A DNA stretch of 64,000 bases from Spirochaetia bacterium. GTDB lineage: Bacteria; Spirochaetota; Spirochaetia; CAKZLE01. Location: the NCBI GenBank assembly GCA_021736385.1, contig JAIPFY010000001.1, forward strand, positions 135,457-199,456. The letters run 5' to 3'. Under the pieces are notes generated by a model, which was given only the letters and a program-made list of their open reading frames with translations, ran no database searches and was not told where the DNA came from. This document shows, piece after piece, positions 42,404 to 54,539 of this stretch. A program made the translations under genes and the position numbers. Position 1 is the stretch's first letter, and the number at the start of each line of letters is the position of its first letter.

Positions 42404-42696
42404 TTATACTGTATCTCCTGTTTGAGGTATGTACACGATTGTCCGACTATTCTATAGATTCGTGTAAAAATATTAAAGTCCTTTCATAGAGGTAGTAAGC
42501 AATTATTCAGCTTGATCACCAAAGGGACTGATCGGTGAACCTGTGAAACATGAGACAAACTGCCGTCATGCGGCTCCCTGCCTCTATATTTATATCATAA
42601 AAAAGGTTATACTCATATGATCTATTATGATCATCAGCTGTGAACAGGCATTCAGACCTCATCACAGCTATCCATATGACACAAGGAGGGTTATTC

Positions 42697-43059
42697 ATGG
42701 AACAAGGACATGCTGATTTTTCCCATAGAGTGATCAGCCTGATCAAGCTGATCCCCGAGGGCACCGTAGCCACCTACGGCCAGATCGCAGCGCAGGCAGG
42801 AGCCCCGAGAGGTGCCAGGCAGGTCGTTCGGATCCTGCACTCCTGCTCACATACCAAGGACCTTCCCTGGCACCGGGTCATCAACCGTCAGGGTATGATC
42901 TCCCTGCCGCATGGCGAGGGATTCGAAGAACAGTACTCGATGCTCAACTCAGAGGGCGTCATGGTCGAACAGAACGGCCATGTCAGTCTTGCCATCTATC
43001 AGTTCTCATTCAGGGATGTGATGACGCTCTCCGGTAATGTCTTTGTAGAAAATACATAA
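42697..43059 (+). CDS. Alkyltransferase-like protein (ATL; MGMT fold without the Cys)
   Basis: MGMT DNA-binding domain (GTVATYGQIA, ARQV) with PWHRVIN instead of PCHRV; AAGGAGGG ribosome-binding site. Confidence 0.88.
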   Translation: MEQGHADFSHRVISLIKLIPEGTVATYGQIAAQAGAPRGARQVVRILHSCSHTKDLPWHRVINRQGMISLPHGEGFEEQYSMLNSEGVMVEQNGHVSLAIYQFSFRDVMTLSGNVFVENT

Positions 43060-43148
43060 CAGCTGCCTCATCACTGTTGTAGCATTGTTACACAATGCAA
43101 CACTATCCACATTTTTCATGATTATCTCACACAATCCCCTTCTTTGTG

Positions 43149-43177
43149 TTGCACAACAACAACAGAATCGGTATAAC
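43149..43177 (+). promoter_or_regulatory. Predicted promoter of purL leader/ncRNA
   Basis: TTGCAC-17-TATAAC. Confidence 0.5.
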
Positions 43178-43183
43178 AGCTGT

Positions 43184-43420
43184 ATACATATCGCAGTATC
43201 TTCACAGGAAGTACACGATAAAAGAGAATTCAAGAGGTTTGCATTTGGACCGCTCGAACTCACAGAGAGACAGCTTATCGACGTGTTGGATGATTCCCCA
43301 TACCATATGGGGTGAACTGCATGCGAATACACACCATACCGTGTATCGATACATGCAGCAGTGCAATGCGCCTGCATGATGATACTGAAGACCCCGGATA
43401 CCATTCCGGGGTCTTTTTGT
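43184..43420 (+). ncRNA. Candidate structured RNA (purL leader/attenuator or 6S-like sRNA)
   Basis: Preceded by a promoter; closing helix CAGTATC(43194-43200)/GATACTG(43381-43387); internal hairpins including CCCCATA-CCA-TATGGGG; ends in an intrinsic terminator. Confidence 0.45.
43389..43418 (+). terminator. Intrinsic terminator upstream of purL
   Basis: AGACCCCGG-ATACCATT-CCGGGGTCTTTTT. Confidence 0.85.
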
Positions 43421-43491: not shown

Positions 43492-45816
43492 ATGTCACAC
43501 ACACGTAATCCCCGATTCGATCTGAAAGAGCTGCCTGATGATCAGATCAAGGAACTCCTGAACAGTCATCAGATCGGTTTGACAGTCGCTGAAGCCAGGA
43601 AGCTGCAGTTTGAGATCCTGGGTAGAGCACCGACACTGACCGAACTGATCCTGTTCGGTATCGAAGGATCAGAGCACTGCTCCTACAAGAGCAGCAGACC
43701 GTATCTGAAGCTCTTCACTACCGAAGGACCTGATGTGATCCTCGGCGCGAAGGAGGATGCCGGGGTCATACGGGTCGCAACAGACCAGCAGGGAACAGGC
43801 TATGCCATCGTCATGAGCCATGAGTCACATAACCATCCCAGTCAGCTGGTCCCGTATGAGGGGGCTGCCACAGGGGTCGGAGGAAATGTCAGAGATGTCT
43901 GCTGCATGGGTGCACAGGTCATCGCACAGGCCGACGACCTGCGCTTCGGCTCCGTCGATATCCCGAAAAACAAATGGATCTACGAGGGAGTGGTATCGGG
44001 GATCGCAGGATACGGGAATCCCATCGGAGTACCGAGCATCGCAGGAGGGCTTCAGTTCGACAAAGGCTATGATGACAACTGTCTGGTCACCGTCGTCTCC
44101 CTCGGGGTGGTGGCAGAGGACGCCATCATCCACTCCTATGCACCGAAGCATGCGGCCGGACACGATCTGATCCTCGTCGGCAAGCCGACTGACAACAGCG
44201 GGTTCGGTGGAGCCAGTTTCGCCAGCTTCGAGCTCGAAGCGGACAAACAGGAACAGAACAAGGGAGCGGTACAGGAACCGAACGCCTTTCTCGGCCGTCA
44301 TATGATCAAAGCCTCCAACGAGCTGTTCAAACGGCTCAAAGCCATCGATGCCATCGATCGCGTAGGCTTCAAGGACCTCGGAGCCGGAGGGATCGCCTGT
44401 GCCAGTGTCGAGCTGGTGGAAGCCTCCGGGTACGGGGCTGTGGTACAGGTAGAGGACATCCATACTGCAGAAGGGGAGTTCCCCTCCCACGTGATCCTCT
44501 GTGCAGAGACACAGGAGCGCTACATGTGGGTATCACCTCCTGATCTGACGCCGATGATCCTCGAGCACTACAATACCGAATATGCCCTTCCTCTGATCTC
44601 CAAAGGCGCTGCTGCAAGAGTCATCGGCAAGGTCACTGATGCAGAAGACTATATCGTCACCTATCGGGGGGAAGAACTCGTGCACGCCCCTGCCGCTGAA
44701 GTGACCAGAGGGTTCCTCTACGACCGGGAAGTCGGAGAGCTGCCGGAACCGATCGCATCGACCGTGTTCGAGGAACCCGAAGATCTGAATGAGATCCTCA
44801 GGCGACTGCTCGGACATGAGAACATCGCATCACGGCATCCGCTGTATGAACAGTATGACAAGCAGGTGCAGGGCCGCACAGCCCTCGAGGCAGGGGCAGG
44901 TGATGCAGGAGTGATCACTCCCTTCAACGACATGACCTACCCCGAAGAACTCAGGAAGATCGCTGTCACCCTCACCACCGACCAGAACCCCAGACAGAAT
45001 GCCATCGACCCCTATCAGGGAGCGGTGAATGCAGTCGTGGAGGCCTTCTGCAATACCACTGCCGTCGGAGCCCGGGCGATCGCCCTCTCTGACTGCCTGT
45101 GCTACGGGAATCCGGAAAAACCTGAACAGATGAGACTCTTCGTTGAAGGCTGCAAAGGTGTAGCAGATGCATCTGATACACTGGGAATCCCGGTAATCGC
45201 AGGGAACGTATCACTCTATAATGAGTCAGGCAACGGTTCGATCCCGCCCAGTCCGATGATAGCCGTACTCGGCAGGATCGAGGACGTGGACCACACGATC
45301 GAGCGGGATCTGCACGAGGCAGGGCTGGAACTGCTGCTCGTAGGCGACAGGGAAGCTGCCTGCGGAGGTTCGGTCTATCTGGAACTGCTCGATGAGCGGT
45401 CATCAGAGATCCCCGCACCGGATCTTCAGAAGCTGATGAAGATCTCAGAGGCGATCCGCACCTGTGCACAGCAGGGTCTGATCACCGCCTGTCATGACAT
45501 CTCCGAAGGCGGGATCGCCGTGGCCCTGAGTGAGATGACCTTCTCACATCAGGTCGGTATCGAGGCTGTGATACCTGATGATACCCCGCTGCGAGATGAC
45601 CTCTGGCTCTTCGGTGAATCCTTCGGGTTCATCATCGCCGTGAACGGAGCACAGGCAGCTGCCTGTAGAGCCGTCTTCACCGCAGCCGGTATCGACCCCG
45701 TCAGTCTGGGTCATACCACCGATCTGGACCAGATCAGCATAGGATCACGTATCCAGCTGACCGTGACCGAAGCAAAACACCTATGGACTCAGGGATTGAG
45801 AAGGAGATTATCATGA
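43492..45816 (+). CDS. purL: Phosphoribosylformylglycinamidine synthase subunit II (small-type PurL)
   Basis: SEHCSYKSSRPYLK, ESHNHPSQLVPYEGAATGVGGNVRD. Confidence 0.97.
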   Translation: MSHTRNPRFDLKELPDDQIKELLNSHQIGLTVAEARKLQFEILGRAPTLTELILFGIEGSEHCSYKSSRPYLKLFTTEGPDVILGAKEDAGVIRVATDQQGTGYAIVMSHESHNHPSQLVPYEGAATGVGGNVRDVCCMGAQVIAQADDLRFGSVDIPKNKWIYEGVVSGIAGYGNPIGVPSIAGGLQFDKGYDDNCLVTVVSLGVVAEDAIIHSYAPKHAAGHDLILVGKPTDNSGFGGASFASFELEADKQEQNKGAVQEPNAFLGRHMIKASNELFKRLKAIDAIDRVGFKDLGAGGIACASVELVEASGYGAVVQVEDIHTAEGEFPSHVILCAETQERYMWVSPPDLTPMILEHYNTEYALPLISKGAAARVIGKVTDAEDYIVTYRGEELVHAPAAEVTRGFLYDREVGELPEPIASTVFEEPEDLNEILRRLLGHENIASRHPLYEQYDKQVQGRTALEAGAGDAGVITPFNDMTYPEELRKIAVTLTTDQNPRQNAIDPYQGAVNAVVEAFCNTTAVGARAIALSDCLCYGNPEKPEQMRLFVEGCKGVADASDTLGIPVIAGNVSLYNESGNGSIPPSPMIAVLGRIEDVDHTIERDLHEAGLELLLVGDREAACGGSVYLELLDERSSEIPAPDLQKLMKISEAIRTCAQQGLITACHDISEGGIAVALSEMTFSHQVGIEAVIPDDTPLRDDLWLFGESFGFIIAVNGAQAAACRAVFTAAGIDPVSLGHTTDLDQISIGSRIQLTVTEAKHLWTQGLRRRLS

Positions 45817-46895
45817 GTATCAGTTATAAAGCAGCGGGTGTCGACATCGACGCCGGGAACCTGACCGTCGAGCGGATCAAGGAGAGTGCCCTGTCGACCT
45901 TCACCCCGGCCGTCCTGACAGGCTTGGGCAGTTTCGGCTCCTTCTATGATCTCTCAGAGCTGCTCACAGCCTACACTCACCCGGTCATGATGCAGAGCAT
46001 CGACGGGGTGGGTACGAAGATCATGCTGGCGAAGATGGCCGGAGACTACTCTACCATCGGCAGAGACCTCCTGAGCGCCTGCTGCAACGACATCATCGTC
46101 CACGGTGCGAATCCTGTCACCTTTCTCGACTATATCGCGAATGACCGGCTGGAACCTGAGGTGGTCGCAGAGATGGTCGCCGGCATGGCTGCCGGCTGCC
46201 GGGAGGCGGGAGTCTCTCTGGTAGGCGGGGAGACAGCAGAGATGCCCGGGACCTATCGTGACGGAGAACATGATCTGGTCGGTATCGTGACCGGCTTCGT
46301 CGAGAAGGACCGGATCATCAACGGCAGCGACGTGATCGCATCTGATGTGATCTTCGGGATCCCCTCGAGCGGGCTGCACACCAACGGCTACTCCCTTGCA
46401 CGAAAAGTCCTCTTCGAACATGCTGGACTGTCCATCGATGACAGCCTGCCCGAAGTCTACGGAGACAGGAGCGGAAGGACCATCGGGGCACTGCTGCTTG
46501 AACCGCATACCAACTATGCCGGGGCGGTCCGGGACCTGCTCGCCTCAGGACTGCAGGTGAAGAGCATGTCTCACATCACAGGAGGGGGTCTGATCGAGAA
46601 TGTCCCGAGGACACTCCCTGAACACCTCTCAGCGGTCATCGATCCCGAATCCTGGGACATCCCCCCCATCTTCTCCTATATCGCAGACCTCGGAGAGATC
46701 CCGCCGCTTGAGATGTTCCACGCATTCAACATGGGGATCGGGTACACGATCGTCGTCCCGCAGGAACAGGCGCAGCAGGCGCGATCGGTGATCACGACCT
46801 GCTTCGGACAGCAGGCTGTGAGACTCGGGGTGATAGCACCCGGAGACGGCAGGACCGTGATCACCGGTATCACCGGGGCAGGAGGTGCAGCATGA
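45813..46895 (+). CDS. purM: Phosphoribosylformylglycinamidine cyclo-ligase
   Basis: YKAAGVDIDAGN, SIDGVGTKIMLA, GLHTNGYSLAR; ATGA overlap with purL. Confidence 0.97.
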   Translation: MSISYKAAGVDIDAGNLTVERIKESALSTFTPAVLTGLGSFGSFYDLSELLTAYTHPVMMQSIDGVGTKIMLAKMAGDYSTIGRDLLSACCNDIIVHGANPVTFLDYIANDRLEPEVVAEMVAGMAAGCREAGVSLVGGETAEMPGTYRDGEHDLVGIVTGFVEKDRIINGSDVIASDVIFGIPSSGLHTNGYSLARKVLFEHAGLSIDDSLPEVYGDRSGRTIGALLLEPHTNYAGAVRDLLASGLQVKSMSHITGGGLIENVPRTLPEHLSAVIDPESWDIPPIFSYIADLGEIPPLEMFHAFNMGIGYTIVVPQEQAQQARSVITTCFGQQAVRLGVIAPGDGRTVITGITGAGGAA

Positions 46896-48169
46896 TCATC
46901 GGCGTCATTCAATTTCCGGGAACCAACTGTGAACGGGAGACCTCAGAAGCCATCAGACGGGCCGGGATGCAGCCGGTCTCTCATCGATGGAACATGTCGA
47001 TACAGCGCCTCAGTTCCTATGACGGGTTCGTGATCGCCGGGGGCTTCTCGTATGAGGACCGAAGCAGGTCAGGGATCATCGCCGCTCAGGACCCGATCAT
47101 GGATGCGATCAAGATCGAGAGTGAGAAAGGGAAACCGGTCCTGGGGATCTGCAACGGAGCACAGATCCTGGTGGAGTCGGGAATGGTTCCGGGGATCGAG
47201 GGCTACCTGCCCGGTGCGGCACTGACGACGAACAGACGAGTCGAACAGGGAACCCTGCTCGGCACCGGTTTCTATAATGCTTGGATCACCATCTGCTTCG
47301 ACGGTGCCCCCCCGGGGTGTGCCTTCACGTCTGCCATGCAGGAGGGGACGTGCCTGAGGATCCCGGCAGCACATGCTGAAGGGCGATTCCTCTTCTCCGA
47401 CGATCTCCGCGACGAGATGCTCAAACGGAATATGATCCTCTTCTCCTATACCGACGAACAGGGCAGCAAAGACCCCGACTTCCCGGTAAACCCCAACGGA
47501 TCGCTGTGCAACACTGCCGCGATCTGCAATGCATCCGGTACGGTCATGGCGATGATGCCCCATCCTGAGAGGACCCCTGCAGGAGATGCGATCTTCACCT
47601 CCATGAGGCAGTACATCGAACGGTGCGAAGCACGACCTGCTGAACCTGTCACCCTGCTCTCCAGTGACTACTATGCTCCCCGGGAACCACTGCAGCACTA
47701 CAGAGCCCCTTCTGATGCACACGAACTGGTCATAGACCTGATCATCACCGACAATGAAGCCGTATCGGTGGAGAATGCGCTGAGGCAGAGAGGGATCGGG
47801 GTGTCTGTCAGCAGAAGGACCCACTGGGAGATCTCGATGGATGCAGCCCATACCGAACAGTCCATGGAACGCATCATCGAGAGCGGAGAACTCTTCAACA
47901 GCAACAAGGAGTTCATCACCACGACAGCGGCCCCCGGGGGATCACGGTCCCTGCTCGTTCGAGAACGGGATGACAGTATCGGGGAACACGCCGTGGATGC
48001 ACTCACGAACTGGTTCGGGATCGATTCCATCACATCGATTCGCCACGGGGTCATCTGGACGATCACTCCAGATGACATGAGCACAGCCGACGAAGTCTAT
48101 GCACTGGTGGAGCAGACCCATCTGCTCTCCAGTCCCATAGCCCACAGGAGTATGATCTATGAAGCCTGA
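46892..48169 (+). CDS. purQ: PurQ glutaminase subunit with C-terminal PurS-like region (fusion)
   Basis: N-terminal class I GATase (GICNGAQIL, MMPHPER); about 150-aa C-terminal PurS-like segment (HAVDALTNWFGIDSITSIRHGVIWTI). Confidence 0.88.
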   Translation: MIIGVIQFPGTNCERETSEAIRRAGMQPVSHRWNMSIQRLSSYDGFVIAGGFSYEDRSRSGIIAAQDPIMDAIKIESEKGKPVLGICNGAQILVESGMVPGIEGYLPGAALTTNRRVEQGTLLGTGFYNAWITICFDGAPPGCAFTSAMQEGTCLRIPAAHAEGRFLFSDDLRDEMLKRNMILFSYTDEQGSKDPDFPVNPNGSLCNTAAICNASGTVMAMMPHPERTPAGDAIFTSMRQYIERCEARPAEPVTLLSSDYYAPREPLQHYRAPSDAHELVIDLIITDNEAVSVENALRQRGIGVSVSRRTHWEISMDAAHTEQSMERIIESGELFNSNKEFITTTAAPGGSRSLLVRERDDSIGEHAVDALTNWFGIDSITSIRHGVIWTITPDDMSTADEVYALVEQTHLLSSPIAHRSMIYEA

Positions 48170-49157
48170 TGAGATCCGTTATAAGCAGATCATCGCAGAC
48201 CATCTTGAGAGCTGCCTGACCGAGACCGACCTTGACCTGCCAGGAAAGAAACGGGGCAAGGTCCGCGACAGCTATACCCTTGATGACCGTATGGTCTTCG
48301 TCACCACCGACCGGCAGAGTGCCTTTGACCGTATCCTCGCCTCAGTCCCCTTCAAAGGTCAGGTCCTGAACCTGACCAGTGCCTGGTGGTTCGACAAGAC
48401 CCGTCATATCGTGCCGAATCACAAACTGGCCGTCCCTGACCCGAACACGACCATCGGCACCCGATGTACTGTGTTCCCCATCGAGTTCGTCGTACGAGGC
48501 TACATCACCGGGACGACCGACACCTCCCTGTGGACACAGTACCGCAGCGGGGTTCGCAGCTACTGCGGTATCGACTTCCCCGAGGGGCTGGTGAAGAACC
48601 AGCAGCTCCCCGAACCGGTGATCACCCCCACCACCAAAGCCGATGATCATGACCGGCCCATCTCTCCGAAGGAGATCATCGAAGAGGGGTGGATGAGCAG
48701 GGAGGACTGGGAGACAGCCAGTGAGTATGCCATGGAACTCTTCGCCTTCGGTCAGAAGACCGCAGAGGAACATGGACTGATCCTTGTCGATACCAAGTAT
48801 GAGATGGGCAGGGCTGCTGATGGCAGGATCCTGCTGATCGACGAGATCCATACCCCGGACTCCAGCCGGTACTGGCTCAAAGACTCCTTCAGCAGACGCC
48901 TGCAGGAAGGCCTTGAACCGGAGAACATCGACAAGGAGTTCCTGCGACTCTGGTTCAGAGAGCACTGCGATCCCTACCATGATGCAGTACTCCCGAAAGC
49001 ACCGGATGAGCTGGTGATCGAACTCTCCTACCGCTATATCATGCTCTATGAGCTGATCACCGGGCAGAAGTTCGTCTTCCCTGAAGGACCCGGGATCGAT
49101 CCCGCACAGCGCCTGGCAGAGAACCTCGCGAACCTGCGGGGTCGGGATGTCGAATAA
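48159..49157 (+). CDS. purC: SAICAR synthetase
   Basis: GKVRDSYTLDDRMVFVTTDRQSAFDR, EFVVRGYITGT. Confidence 0.96.
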   Translation: MKPDEIRYKQIIADHLESCLTETDLDLPGKKRGKVRDSYTLDDRMVFVTTDRQSAFDRILASVPFKGQVLNLTSAWWFDKTRHIVPNHKLAVPDPNTTIGTRCTVFPIEFVVRGYITGTTDTSLWTQYRSGVRSYCGIDFPEGLVKNQQLPEPVITPTTKADDHDRPISPKEIIEEGWMSREDWETASEYAMELFAFGQKTAEEHGLILVDTKYEMGRAADGRILLIDEIHTPDSSRYWLKDSFSRRLQEGLEPENIDKEFLRLWFREHCDPYHDAVLPKAPDELVIELSYRYIMLYELITGQKFVFPEGPGIDPAQRLAENLANLRGRDVE

Positions 49158-49182
49158 CACGAAACACAAGGAGTACAGAGGT

Positions 49183-49605
49183 ATGAAGAAGATCGTGATC
49201 ATCATGGGATCGGATTCAGACAGACCGCATGCAGACAGGATCATCGATGGTCTGCAGCGGGCTGAGGGCTATGACAAATCAAGCTATGCGATCGATGTCT
49301 ATACGGCATCGGCCCATAAGGAACCCCTGAAAGTCATGGGTATCCTCGATGCGCACAAAGACGAGAAAGCCCTGGTCTATATCACCATAGCAGGACGGTC
49401 CAACGCCCTCTCCGGGTTCTGCGCGGCGAACTGCAGTGCACCGGTGATCGCCTGCCCTCCATTCGCAGACAAGGTCGATATGATGGTGAACATCCACTCG
49501 ACCCTGCAGATGCCAAGCAGGACTCCGGTGATGGCAGTACTTGACCCCGGCAATGCGGCGCTTGCGGTCATGAGGATCCTTGCCCTCTCAGAAAGGAGTC
49601 TCTAG
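49183..49605 (+). CDS. purE: Class II PurE (AIR carboxylase)
   Basis: IIMGSDSDRPHADRI, TASAHKEP, IAGRSNALSG (class II signature instead of AGGAAHLPG). Confidence 0.9.
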   Translation: MKKIVIIMGSDSDRPHADRIIDGLQRAEGYDKSSYAIDVYTASAHKEPLKVMGILDAHKDEKALVYITIAGRSNALSGFCAANCSAPVIACPPFADKVDMMVNIHSTLQMPSRTPVMAVLDPGNAALAVMRILALSERSL

Positions 49606-49608
49606 TCC

Positions 49609-51048
49609 ATGTGCGGCATCGTCGGCATCATTGCAGCGCGCCCGGTGGTAACCGATATCTACGACAGTCTCGTTCAGCTTCAGCACCGGGGGCAGGATGC
49701 TGCAGGGATCATCACCTGCAATGAGGGACTGCATATCAAGAAGGGGACCGGGCTGGTCCGTGATATCTTCCAGGCACGACACATGGAACGGCTTCAGGGG
49801 CATATGGGGATCGGCCATACCCGCTATCCAACCAGCGGGGGCAAGAGCGGGGATGAGGTCCAGCCCTTCTGGACCAGTGTCCCCAACGGGATAGCCTTTG
49901 CCCATAACGGCAATATCGTAAACTATCTCCAGCTCCGTGATGAGGTGATCACCAAGCGGAAGCGCTACCTCAATACCTACAGCGACTCCGAGATGCTCAT
50001 GCAGCTCTTTGCCGATGTACTCCAGCGCTGTATCGGACACAATCCCACCCACCTGATCTCGGACTCCACCTTCTTTGACGGGCTGTGCATCGCCGCTTCA
50101 GAGCTCTTCTCCCTGATCAAGGGGTCGGTCTCCGCAGTCAGTGTCATCAAGGGACGGGGGCTCATAGCCTTTCGTGATCCGCACGGTATCAGGCCTCTGG
50201 TCATGGGTGAACGGACGTCCTCTGATGGGAAGAAGGAGTATATCTTCGCCTCGGAAGACACGATGTTCTACATGCTCGGCTACACCCTCATCCGGGATGT
50301 GGCACCGGGAGAACTCATCTATGTGACCGAAGCCGGGGAGCTCTTCTCGAAGATCGTGCAGCACAGGGCCTTCACCCCCTGTATCTTCGAATATGTCTAC
50401 TTCGCACGTCCCGATACCATGATGAACAACATCAACATCTACCGTTCACGGCTGCGCATGGGAGAGAACCTCGGGCATCTGTGGCAGAAACGCTACGGGG
50501 AACTGCGCCCGGACGTGATCATCCCCGCCCCTTCGACAGCAAACACCATGGCTCTTTCGATGGCCCGGGTCCTGGGAGTGAACTACTCCGAAGGACTCTA
50601 TAAGAACACCTTCATCGGCAGGACCTTCATCATGGCTGATCAGAAACAGCGCAGGCAGTCAGTCCGGTACAAACTCGTACCCCAGTTGCTGGAGATCAAA
50701 GGCAAAGATGTCATGATCGTAGATGACAGCATCGTGCGGGGGACCACCAGCAAGGAGATCGTCAAGATGGTGAAGGAGTTCGGGGCAAAGAAGGTCTACT
50801 TCGTCTCAGCCTGCCCGCCGGTCTGTAAGCCCTGCTACTACGGGGTCGACATCCCCACCCATGAGGAACTGATCGCATCATCCAAGACAGAAGAGGAGAT
50901 CAGAGCATATCTGGAAGCAGATATCCTGCTCTATCAGCAGCTCGAAGGTCTTGTGGAAGCCGTCACCAGAAAGGGTGACCACCACATAGACACCCCCTGT
51001 ACCGCATGTCTTGGAGGGACCTACATCCATGAACAGGAGGGACAGTGA
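49609..51048 (+). CDS. purF: Amidophosphoribosyltransferase
   Basis: MCGIVGII (Cys at position 2, no propeptide), VMIVDDSIVRGTTSKEIV. Confidence 0.97.
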   Translation: MCGIVGIIAARPVVTDIYDSLVQLQHRGQDAAGIITCNEGLHIKKGTGLVRDIFQARHMERLQGHMGIGHTRYPTSGGKSGDEVQPFWTSVPNGIAFAHNGNIVNYLQLRDEVITKRKRYLNTYSDSEMLMQLFADVLQRCIGHNPTHLISDSTFFDGLCIAASELFSLIKGSVSAVSVIKGRGLIAFRDPHGIRPLVMGERTSSDGKKEYIFASEDTMFYMLGYTLIRDVAPGELIYVTEAGELFSKIVQHRAFTPCIFEYVYFARPDTMMNNINIYRSRLRMGENLGHLWQKRYGELRPDVIIPAPSTANTMALSMARVLGVNYSEGLYKNTFIGRTFIMADQKQRRQSVRYKLVPQLLEIKGKDVMIVDDSIVRGTTSKEIVKMVKEFGAKKVYFVSACPPVCKPCYYGVDIPTHEELIASSKTEEEIRAYLEADILLYQQLEGLVEAVTRKGDHHIDTPCTACLGGTYIHEQEGQ

Positions 51049-52361
51049 TGATGAGAATAGCCGTGATCGGATCGGGAGCACGGGAGCATATCCTTGCATA
51101 TGCCCTCTATCATGCTCCTGAACCGACGACCCTCTTCGCGTTCGGGACCACAGCGAACCCCGGGATCATGCAGCTGTGCAGTGACTACCGCATCGGGGAT
51201 ATCACCGATGTTGCTGCGGTCTGCTCACAGCTGACTGCATGGGAGATCGACCTGGCGGTCATCGGACCTGAGGCACCCCTGAGCACCGGGACCGCAGATG
51301 CCCTGCGTGCTGCGGGGGTCTCCGTATTCGGCCCGGACAGGGCACTGGCCCGGATCGAGACCAGCAAGTCCTATACCAGAGAGCTGCTTGAAAAGACAGT
51401 ACCGCAGGCAAGTCCCTATTACCGGGTCGTCCGCAGTATCGGCGAGGCAGAGAGGGCATTGGCACACCTCGGTGAGCTCTACGTGATCAAAGCCGATGGA
51501 CTGTGCGGAGGGAAAGGGGTGAAAGTCTCGCAGGAGCACCTGCACTCCCATGAAGAGGCCCTGGAGTTCATCAGAGAACTGCTCGCCCAGAACAGTCAGT
51601 GTGTGATCGAGGAGAAACTCATCGGAGAGGAGTTCTCCCTGATGACCATCACCGACGGGTCCACCTGCATACACCTGCCGGTCGTCCAGGATCATAAGCG
51701 TGCCTATCCCGGTGATACCGGACCGAACACCGGCGGGATGGGAAGCTACTCCGATGCCGACCACTCGCTTCCCTTCCTCACCCCCGATGATATCCTCACA
51801 GCCAGAGAGCTCAATGAACAGGTGATCGAAGCACTTGAACAGGACAACGGGAGCCCCTACCGGGGCGTACTCTACGGCGGATTCATGGCAGTGTCAGAGG
51901 GGGTAAAGATCATAGAGTACAATGCCCGTTTCGGTGACCCGGAGGTCATGAACCTGATCAGTGTGATCGATGCGGATTTCCCACAGCTCTTCTTAGCAGC
52001 CGCTCAGGGGACCCTGCACGATCAGCAGATCACGCTGCGCCCCCTGGCCTCGGTCTGCAAGTATGCAGTACCGCAGGGCTACCCGGAAGCTCCTGTCAAA
52101 GGTGCTGAGATCGATATCAGCGGTATCGATGGGCCCTGCAGCATCTATCTCGGTTCTGTCGACCTCATCGACGGTGTTCTGGTGACCGGTGGATCGAGGA
52201 CCGCTGCCTGCGTGGCTCTGGGGAAGACCATCGAAGAGGCGGAGAGGAGAGCAGAGACCGCGGTCAGACAGATCCGCGGGAAACTCTTTCACAGGTCGGA
52301 CATCGGTACCGCGGCACTGATCGACAAGCGGACAGCCCATATGAGAGAGATCAGATCATGA
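51045..52361 (+). CDS. purD: Phosphoribosylamine-glycine ligase
   Basis: VIGSGAREHIL, ATP-grasp motifs, EYNARFGDPE. Confidence 0.97.
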   Translation: MMMRIAVIGSGAREHILAYALYHAPEPTTLFAFGTTANPGIMQLCSDYRIGDITDVAAVCSQLTAWEIDLAVIGPEAPLSTGTADALRAAGVSVFGPDRALARIETSKSYTRELLEKTVPQASPYYRVVRSIGEAERALAHLGELYVIKADGLCGGKGVKVSQEHLHSHEEALEFIRELLAQNSQCVIEEKLIGEEFSLMTITDGSTCIHLPVVQDHKRAYPGDTGPNTGGMGSYSDADHSLPFLTPDDILTARELNEQVIEALEQDNGSPYRGVLYGGFMAVSEGVKIIEYNARFGDPEVMNLISVIDADFPQLFLAAAQGTLHDQQITLRPLASVCKYAVPQGYPEAPVKGAEIDISGIDGPCSIYLGSVDLIDGVLVTGGSRTAACVALGKTIEEAERRAETAVRQIRGKLFHRSDIGTAALIDKRTAHMREIRS

Positions 52362-52957
52362 GCACATCGAAGATCAGACTGGGGATCCTGGGATCGACCC
52401 GAGGGACCGATATGCAGGCTATCATCGATGCGATCGAAGCAGAGAGACTCACTGCAGAGATCGAGGTGGTCATCTCAGACAGGAAGCACGCAGGGATCCT
52501 TGATCGGGCACGGGAGCACGGCCTGCAGGCAGTATACCTGCCTGCGATCAAGGCGGGCAGAAGAGTCGAACGAACGGTCTATGATGCACAGGTGAGTACG
52601 GTACTCCGCGAGCACCAGGTGGACATGGTACTGCTCATCGGGTACATGAGGATCGTCTCACCGGAATTCTGCAGCAGCTGGGAAGGGAGGCTGGTGAACG
52701 TACATCCCTCACTGCTCCCGGATTTCGCAGGAGGTATGGACAGTGATGTCCATGCTGCGGTGATCGCTTCAGGACGGACCGAGACCGGATGCACCGTGCA
52801 TCTGGTGACCGAAGAGGTAGATGGAGGTCCCATCCTGCTGCAGAAGCGCTGTGCAGTCCTTCCCGATGATGATCCGCAGTCGTTGAAACAGCGGGTCCAG
52901 CATCTTGAGGGTGAAGCGCTCATCGAGGTGATTGCACGTTTTGTCCCGTCATATTAG
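52358..52957 (+). CDS. purN: Phosphoribosylglycinamide formyltransferase
   Basis: VNVHPSLLPDF and GCTVHLVTEEVDGGPIL. Confidence 0.94.
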   Translation: MSTSKIRLGILGSTRGTDMQAIIDAIEAERLTAEIEVVISDRKHAGILDRAREHGLQAVYLPAIKAGRRVERTVYDAQVSTVLREHQVDMVLLIGYMRIVSPEFCSSWEGRLVNVHPSLLPDFAGGMDSDVHAAVIASGRTETGCTVHLVTEEVDGGPILLQKRCAVLPDDDPQSLKQRVQHLEGEALIEVIARFVPSY

Positions 52958-52985
52958 TATAGTACAGAGAAAGGGGAAGTAAGTT

Positions 52986-54539
52986 ATGATGAATACAGCA
53001 CCGACTACCGTAAAAAGAGCATTGCTCTCAGTCTCAGATAAGACAGGGATCGTCGAGTTCGCACAGCGGCTGCACCGCTGCGGTGTGGAACTGATCTCCA
53101 CCGGAGGGACTCAGCGACTGATCAAAGAAGCCGGGATACCGGTACAGGAGGTCTCAGAGATCACCGGGTTCCCGGAGATGATGGACGGGAGGGTGAAGAC
53201 CCTGCATCCACTGGTACACGGTGGGATCCTCGGTCTGCGGGATGTACATGCAGAGGCAGCAGCTGCCCATCATATCCCCTGGATCGATCTGGTGGTCTGC
53301 AACCTCTATCCCTTCGAGACCACCATCAACACACCGGGTGTCGCACTCGATCAGGCGATCGAACAGATCGACATCGGAGGGCCTACCATGATCCGGTCGG
53401 CCGCGAAGAATCTCGGATGGGTCAGTGTGGTGGTGAATCCACAGGACTATGAGATCGTAGCCCGGGGACTCGAAGAGAACGGCAGCATCACCTATGAGAC
53501 CAGAGAGCGCTTGTGTGCTGCAGCCTTCAGACATACGGCACAGTACGATGCCCTGATCCAGGCATACCTCACCCGGGAGCCGTTCCCTCAGGAGATCACC
53601 CTCACCTATCGCAAGTTCAGTGACCTGCGCTACGGGGAGAATCCCCATCAGAGAGCTGCCGCCTATACGTCAGTGCTTCCCCCCGACCTGAAAGATGACA
53701 TGTCGATCCTCGAGGCGGAGATCCTCGGAGGCAAGGAACTCTCCTACAATAACATCAATGATGCGACAGGGACCATACAGACCCTGAGGGAGTTCTCAGA
53801 TCCCGCATGTGTGGTCGTGAAGCATGCGAATCCCTGCGGAGCAGCATCGGGAGATGATATCTTCAAGGTCACACAGGATGCCTTCAACGCCGACAGGCTC
53901 TCAGCCTTCGGAGGCCTGGTAGCCATCAACAGACCCTGTACCGTGGAGATCGCGCAGTTCTTCAGCAAGATCTTCTTCGAGATCTTCATGGCCCCCGATT
54001 ACGAGCCGGAAGCACTGGCGATCCTGAAGAAGAAGAAGAATCTGAGGATCCTCCGTCTCAAGGACATCAAACCGCTCAATCAGGTGCCGATGCAGAAGTT
54101 CGTAGACGGCGGTCTGCTGGTGCAGGATCGGGACTGCTCAGTCATAGAGGCCTCTGATCTCACGGTAGTGACCAAGAGGATCCCAACCGAAGCAGAGACC
54201 GAGGATATGCTCTTTGGCTGGAAGGTCCTCAAGCATGTGAAATCGAATGGTATCCTGATCGCAAAAGATACGACCACTCTGGGGATCGGACCCGGTCAGG
54301 TCTCACGTGTGGATGCCGTACAGATCGCACTGAACAAGAGCTCATCCCCCGAAGGGGCGATCCTCGCATCAGATGCATTCTTCCCCTTCAGAGACAGTAT
54401 CGACTCTCTCGCCGGCAGCGGCATCAAGGCGATCATCCAGCCCGGCGGTTCCATACGGGATGATGAGGTCATAGCAGCATGTGATGAGCACGGTATCGCG
54501 ATGGTCTTCACCGGAATCCGCTGTTTCAATCACGGCTAG
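52986..54539 (+). CDS. purH: AICAR transformylase/IMP cyclohydrolase
   Basis: ALLSVSDKTGIVEFA, HGGILGLRD, VVKHANPCGAA. Confidence 0.97.
   Translation: MMNTAPTTVKRALLSVSDKTGIVEFAQRLHRCGVELISTGGTQRLIKEAGIPVQEVSEITGFPEMMDGRVKTLHPLVHGGILGLRDVHAEAAAAHHIPWIDLVVCNLYPFETTINTPGVALDQAIEQIDIGGPTMIRSAAKNLGWVSVVVNPQDYEIVARGLEENGSITYETRERLCAAAFRHTAQYDALIQAYLTREPFPQEITLTYRKFSDLRYGENPHQRAAAYTSVLPPDLKDDMSILEAEILGGKELSYNNINDATGTIQTLREFSDPACVVVKHANPCGAASGDDIFKVTQDAFNADRLSAFGGLVAINRPCTVEIAQFFSKIFFEIFMAPDYEPEALAILKKKKNLRILRLKDIKPLNQVPMQKFVDGGLLVQDRDCSVIEASDLTVVTKRIPTEAETEDMLFGWKVLKHVKSNGILIAKDTTTLGIGPGQVSRVDAVQIALNKSSSPEGAILASDAFFPFRDSIDSLAGSGIKAIIQPGGSIRDDEVIAACDEHGIAMVFTGIRCFNHG

Follow-up and report, generated by a model that had tools for sequence, protein, structure and literature searches.

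A candidate translation-coupled transcription attenuator in front of a spirochaete purine operon

Introduction

Known forms of control are repressors and riboswitches at purine operons and coupling between the ribosome and RNA polymerase at pyrimidine operons. At the Escherichia coli pyrE attenuator (rph-pyrE), the stop codon lies a few nucleotides before the terminator and read-through needs a following ribosome. To our knowledge, transcription-translation coupling has hardly been studied in the spirochaete phylum. At the E. coli pyrBI operon, the terminator does not form when ribosome and polymerase are tightly coupled along the pyrL leader peptide (PMC5021804). In an E. coli experiment, termination dropped from about 90% to less than 10% once a stop codon had been shifted to a position 5 bp ahead of a terminator, an effect that vanished once translation was removed (PMC4824070). 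The pur operon of Bacillus subtilis is under two-layer control, with PurR operators at the promoter and a guanine riboswitch in the leader (PMC10912719). We found no paper in the open-access literature on leader-ORF attenuation of a purine operon.

Here we analyse the region preceding the purine operon of a Spirochaetia bacterium. The window, i.e., the whole stretch of DNA under study, spans 64,000 nucleotides and is part of contig G000:C79; the closest relative, referred to as G001, corresponds to Spirochaetia MAG contig CAKZLE010000034.1.

Results

Family scans confirmed the nine-gene purine operon proposed in the initial annotation, purL-M-Q-C-E-F-D-N-H (43492-54539), with PurE scoring below its curated cut-off and the other eight proteins above at least one. 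The first gene is purL (43492-45816); like the promoter and leader features described below, it lies on the forward strand. PurQ family models cover just the first ~229 of the 425 residues encoded by 46892-48169, and by eye the C-terminal part may be a fused PurS-like duplication. Directly upstream of the operon promoter lies an alkyltransferase-like gene (42640-43059; MGMT DNA-binding domain) in which PWHR replaces PCHR; it is syntenic in G001 and, by eye, also in L037.

The operon is preceded by a sigma-70-type promoter (43149-43177), which aligns in G001 and consists of TTGCAC (43149-43154), a 17-nt spacer and TATAAC (43172-43177), with a predicted start near 43184. It is also preceded by a strong intrinsic terminator (43387-43420), whose stem-loop of 12 pairs (43387-43416) is followed by a T tract and ends 75 nt before purL. 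Both elements are as initially annotated. The intervening leader had been credited with little coding potential, and this overlooked a 44-codon ORF (43245-43379) that starts with TTG and ends with TGA, followed in frame by TGA TAC TGA. A Shine-Dalgarno sequence, AAGAGG (43232-43237), is located 7 nt before the TTG, and the stop codon is 7 nt ahead of the terminator stem. In G001 the same AAGAGG is followed after 8 nt by an ATG that opens an ORF of 43 codons, with its stop 3 nt ahead of the terminator stem. The earlier assessment holds in that codon usage of the window ORF is not gene-like (-0.19 bits per codon versus +0.22 for purL), as is expected for a peptide of irrelevant sequence, but equally for a non-coding leader.

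We compared this arrangement with a PurL-anchored set of upstream regions from 18 spirochaete genomes of families f1, f3, f8, f17 and f34. An intrinsic terminator is present in 14 of about 17-18 purL leaders, 22-105 nt before purL, the terminators of L160 and L161 having been read by eye. The proposed attenuator is not universal, because four purL leaders have no terminator (L122, L125, L126 and, by eye, L162). L122 and L162, from two g67 genomes, combine a TGTTGCA-marked purL promoter with a leader lacking the terminator and make natural controls for a loss of attenuation. A terminator was absent from all 65 non-spirochaete purL upstream regions, although many of those purL genes may be operon-internal. 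The proposal that the segment is an attenuator leader of the purine operon thus gains from the recurrence of promoter, leader and terminator before purL in 14 spirochaete genomes, against 0/65 elsewhere. Several relatives have just 22-47 nt between terminator and purL, which leaves no room for a second promoter, and therefore the operon must be transcribed through the terminator.

In 12 of the 14 leaders an ORF 20 or more codons long has its stop in the interval from -13 nt (ahead of the stem) to +2 nt (inside it), against a shuffled expectation of 3.3 (z 5.9); this z value is optimistic, since the interval was chosen after inspection and the genomes include near relatives. In the near relatives L118 and L161 the ORF reads through the terminator. 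For comparison, terminators of ordinary genes in ~0.8 Mb of two f1 genomes mostly lie 20-30 nt past the stop codon, and only 2 of 23 fall inside the -13 to +2 interval. Ala-stop ends 8 of the 12 terminator-abutting leader ORFs versus 6% of 663 ordinary genes, a post hoc observation; such endings occur in the window (43374-43379) and in leaders L114-L116, L119-L121 and L123, and could act as a degradation signal or through an effect on release.

The leader peptides of the window (MDRSNS...IPHTIWGELHA) and G001 (MNRSIS...IPYFLWDRLHA) align with a score of 42 versus 1.8 ± 7.4 in shuffles, which is weak evidence of coding because the underlying DNA is homologous. Leader peptides differ between families, with no conservation across them. 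In close pairs of leader ORFs we found no synonymous-site signature of coding, the patterns being uninformative or contrary: the six substitutions between L118 and L161 fall 3, 3 and 0 at the three codon positions, avoiding third positions, which is the opposite of a protein under selection. A Shine-Dalgarno-like match precedes most leader ORFs (that of L160 was read by eye) and is absent or weak in four: L116 and L124 have no usable match and would require leaderless starts, and L120 and L121 have merely a weak GGTG.

The leader segment, including the terminator, which contributes to this stability, folds at -80 kcal/mol compared with -58.8 kcal/mol for shuffled sequences (z -4.6), and the G001 leader, which occupies the equivalent place with the same genes on either side, gives a z of -3.9. 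Besides promoter and terminator, two blocks are kept between these genomes, GAGAAnTCAAGAGGTTT..CGCTCGAnCTC and ACTGCATGCG. The former doubles as the ribosome-binding site of the leader ORF and folds as a hairpin of 14 pairs, P1 (43224-43261), which encloses the Shine-Dalgarno sequence and start codon. Four of the 14 pairs differ between window and G001 and all four stay paired, one through a double change, in a comparison of two sequences that are too few for a covariation test. Sequestration of the ribosome-binding site was not upheld as a general theme, accessibility being mixed across leaders. The initially annotated pairings CCCCATA/TATGGGG, ATACAC/GTGTAT and GCATG/CATGC can all be found in the sequence, whereas the CAGTATC/GATACTG closing stem has no counterpart in G001, the sole relative that aligns. 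The CCCCATA/TATGGGG hairpin (43296-43312), with a weaker counterpart in G001, may be a pause hairpin; the conserved ACTGCATGCG block (43316-43325) contains a possible pause site, U43322/G43323, 10 nt past it. A hairpin followed by U/G 10 nt downstream is common to both f1 genomes and, judged from sequence, resembles a hairpin-stabilised pause site. Across all leaders and families, we found no common purine-rich pause tract or other pause feature.

No pairing of an antiterminator with the terminator 5' arm was found in the window or G001; as long as the 3' arm has yet to be transcribed, the 5'-arm CCCC is predicted to pair with a probability of 0.02-0.10 in the window and 0.05-0.09 in G001. None of the leader peptides has a stretch of repeated codons specifying a single end-product amino acid. 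Classical amino-acid attenuation of the trp/his type was rejected, given that neither codon runs nor antiterminator pairing were found.

Comparison of the leader with Rfam 15 yielded no family at the gathering thresholds and no credible candidate under permissive settings. Known riboswitches were rejected, as neither the window locus nor 12 related loci matched any Rfam family, including the purine, ZTP and PRPP aptamers, in line with the initial remark that none of these was recognisable. When a covariance model (R1) built from the two f1 leaders was run against 395 genomes of the class, no further credible member emerged, the best other match reaching 19.6 bits (E 0.04). The leader sequence is thus kept within one family, in two genomes. 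Given that the leaders share no sequence across families and match no Rfam family, it is the layout that is kept, not an aptamer. For 6S RNA (RF00013), which had been raised as a serious alternative, the covariance model has no match at the leader; the 6S gene of this genome lies on another contig (73 bits, above the curated cut-off), directly after an infC/rpmI-rplT-zapA-like cluster whose genes were named by eye. As far as these scans reach, 6S RNA was therefore rejected.

The promoter carries operator-like half-sites: TGTTGCA (43147-43153) overlaps the -35 box, and an upstream TGCAACA (43096-43102), 76 bp before the -10 box, recurs at the corresponding place in G001 and L114. In 12 of 14 promoters, with f34 as the exception, TGTTGCA is located at -24 to -26 relative to the -10 box. 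Most purL promoters hold additional copies 21, 41-42, 51 or 61-63 bp away, spacings that are all near whole helical turns; such fixed, helically phased sites occur in the window, L114-L119, L123, L124, L160 and L161. In a search of 14 genomes, TGCAACA-N13..15-TGTTGCA occurred at seven places, five of which are purL promoters; the other two lie within another gene (G049:C1) and at G377:C209, where a second contig carries a repeat of the G377 purL sequence. The arrangement is thus almost exclusive to purL across these genomes. Promoters with TGTTGCA-N3-TGTTGCA lie ahead of the carbamate kinase gene of three genomes, and one genome has a near-copy ahead of adenine deaminase (L128, G000:C29:7207-7234; L149, G001:C23; L142, G072:C99; L140, G066:C38), and these promoters probably belong to the same purine regulon. 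In G000 and G001 the carbamate kinase gene is transcribed divergently from that of a Vut_1/YhhQ-like transporter. A PurR of the B. subtilis type (PuR_N, PF09182) was not found in the genome and was rejected as candidate regulator.

Discussion

We consider it fairly probable that the leader acts on the purine operon as a translation-coupled transcription attenuator, similar to those of pyrBI and pyrE, and its anatomy would place it among attenuators of that kind. What our analysis demonstrates is this anatomy, which recurs in spirochaetes of five families, and the recurrent stop-at-terminator layout suggests that ribosomes decide whether the operon is read. Transcription would begin at ~43184 from a promoter bearing TGTTGCA sites, presumably bound by a purine repressor, giving a transcript with a short ORF whose stop codon is positioned 7 nt ahead of the intrinsic terminator. 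A ribosome close behind RNA polymerase at the end of this ORF would cover the 5' arm of the terminator, thereby blocking the hairpin and allowing polymerase to continue into purL, and with no ribosome nearby the terminator would fold and transcription would stop. Since the leader anatomy is the same as that of coupled terminators in E. coli, translation would switch the operon on. We infer that the leader ORF is translated and that the ribosome controls the terminator; the signal may be RNA polymerase pausing at low ATP or GTP, which would parallel, for purines, the way pyrBI and pyrE sense UTP. In the f1 leaders, the location of the ribosome-binding site inside the conserved hairpin P1 may slow ribosome loading. 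It is tempting to speculate, as a possible but rather doubtful extension, that a spirochaete-wide attenuator class exists in which coupling over a sequence-unconstrained ORF senses ATP/GTP via polymerase speed, mirroring pyrBI.

Several other readings of the locus deserve consideration. The leader could be a lineage-specific riboswitch or protein-binding RNA whose hairpins P1-P3 respond to a purine or are bound by a regulator and govern the terminator, the ORF being coincidental. Folding beyond that of shuffles in both window and G001, the maintenance of P1 pairing across two genomes with one double change and the conserved ACTGCATGCG block are all consistent with such an RNA. Yet no Rfam family matches the leader, no antiterminator was found to pair with the 5' arm of the terminator, the leader is kept in two genomes only while the terminator and the ORF end recur in five families, and some relatives have leaders of less than 100 nt. 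We therefore regard a structured RNA of this type, including the riboswitch suggested by the initial annotation, as unlikely. Somewhat less likely again is an unregulated partial terminator that trims expression by a fixed fraction, with control exerted at the promoter by a TGTTGCA-binding regulator. The strong operator-like arrangement of the promoter means that regulation could sit there alone, and four leaders manage without a terminator, but this explanation gives no reason why 12 of 14 leaders keep the ORF stop at the stem.

The discrete folded transcript of ~235 nt framed by promoter and terminator might instead be an independent small RNA gene that stands before purL by chance, as had also been envisaged. 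Its sequence, however, is not kept beyond the family, its position before purL is conserved, and the 22-47 nt between terminator and purL in several relatives are too small for a second promoter, which makes this reading improbable. It appears more improbable still that the ORF forms a gene, with a terminator of its own, that encodes a small functional protein: Shine-Dalgarno sequence, start and stop are all there, the window and G001 peptides can be aligned and Ala-stop is enriched at ORF ends, but codon usage is not gene-like, the peptides of other families are unrelated, and the gene's own ribosomes would suppress a terminator so close to its stop (PMC4824070). The ~195 nt between the arms of the outer stem and the proximity to purine genes are reminiscent of 6S RNA, but in the absence of a 6S match at the leader, with an above-cut-off 6S gene elsewhere in the genome and an outer stem not kept in G001, where a long rod with the conserved closing stem of 6S is thus not seen, the probability of a divergent 6S RNA is close to nil.

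If the translation-coupled attenuator is confirmed, spirochaetes would apply a pyrimidine-style device to purines, with selection acting mainly on the positions of stop codon and terminator. The regulatory element would be invisible to sequence and covariance searches and detectable by an anatomical search, and it would provide a simple test of transcription-translation coupling in the spirochaete phylum.

The spirochaete leaders share a short ORF, hairpins and an intrinsic terminator with the leader peptide attenuators of the trp/his type and differ from these in the regulatory codon run and antiterminator pairing, neither of which was found here. Promoter operators combined with a leader RNA element recall the two layers of the B. 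subtilis pur operon, although the spirochaete leader has no guanine aptamer, the operator sequence is different and no PuR_N-type PurR was found in the spirochaete genome. The E. coli pyrE attenuator likewise has its stop codon a few nucleotides before the terminator, but the translated unit is an entire enzyme gene (rph) in that case and an ORF of 21-50 codons in the spirochaete leaders. As at E. coli pyrBI, where pyrL extends up to or through an intrinsic terminator (PMC5021804, PMC4824070), a leader ORF and terminator precede a nucleotide-biosynthesis operon, and L118 and L161, in which the ORF runs through the terminator, come closest to this system. In contrast to pyrBI, the operon is one for purines rather than pyrimidines and belongs to spirochaetes, the stop codon lies just before the stem in most leaders, and the leaders have no common U-rich pause tract. 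Altogether, the locus most likely represents ordinary parts newly combined, a pyrBI/pyrE-like attenuator placed on a spirochaete purine operon.
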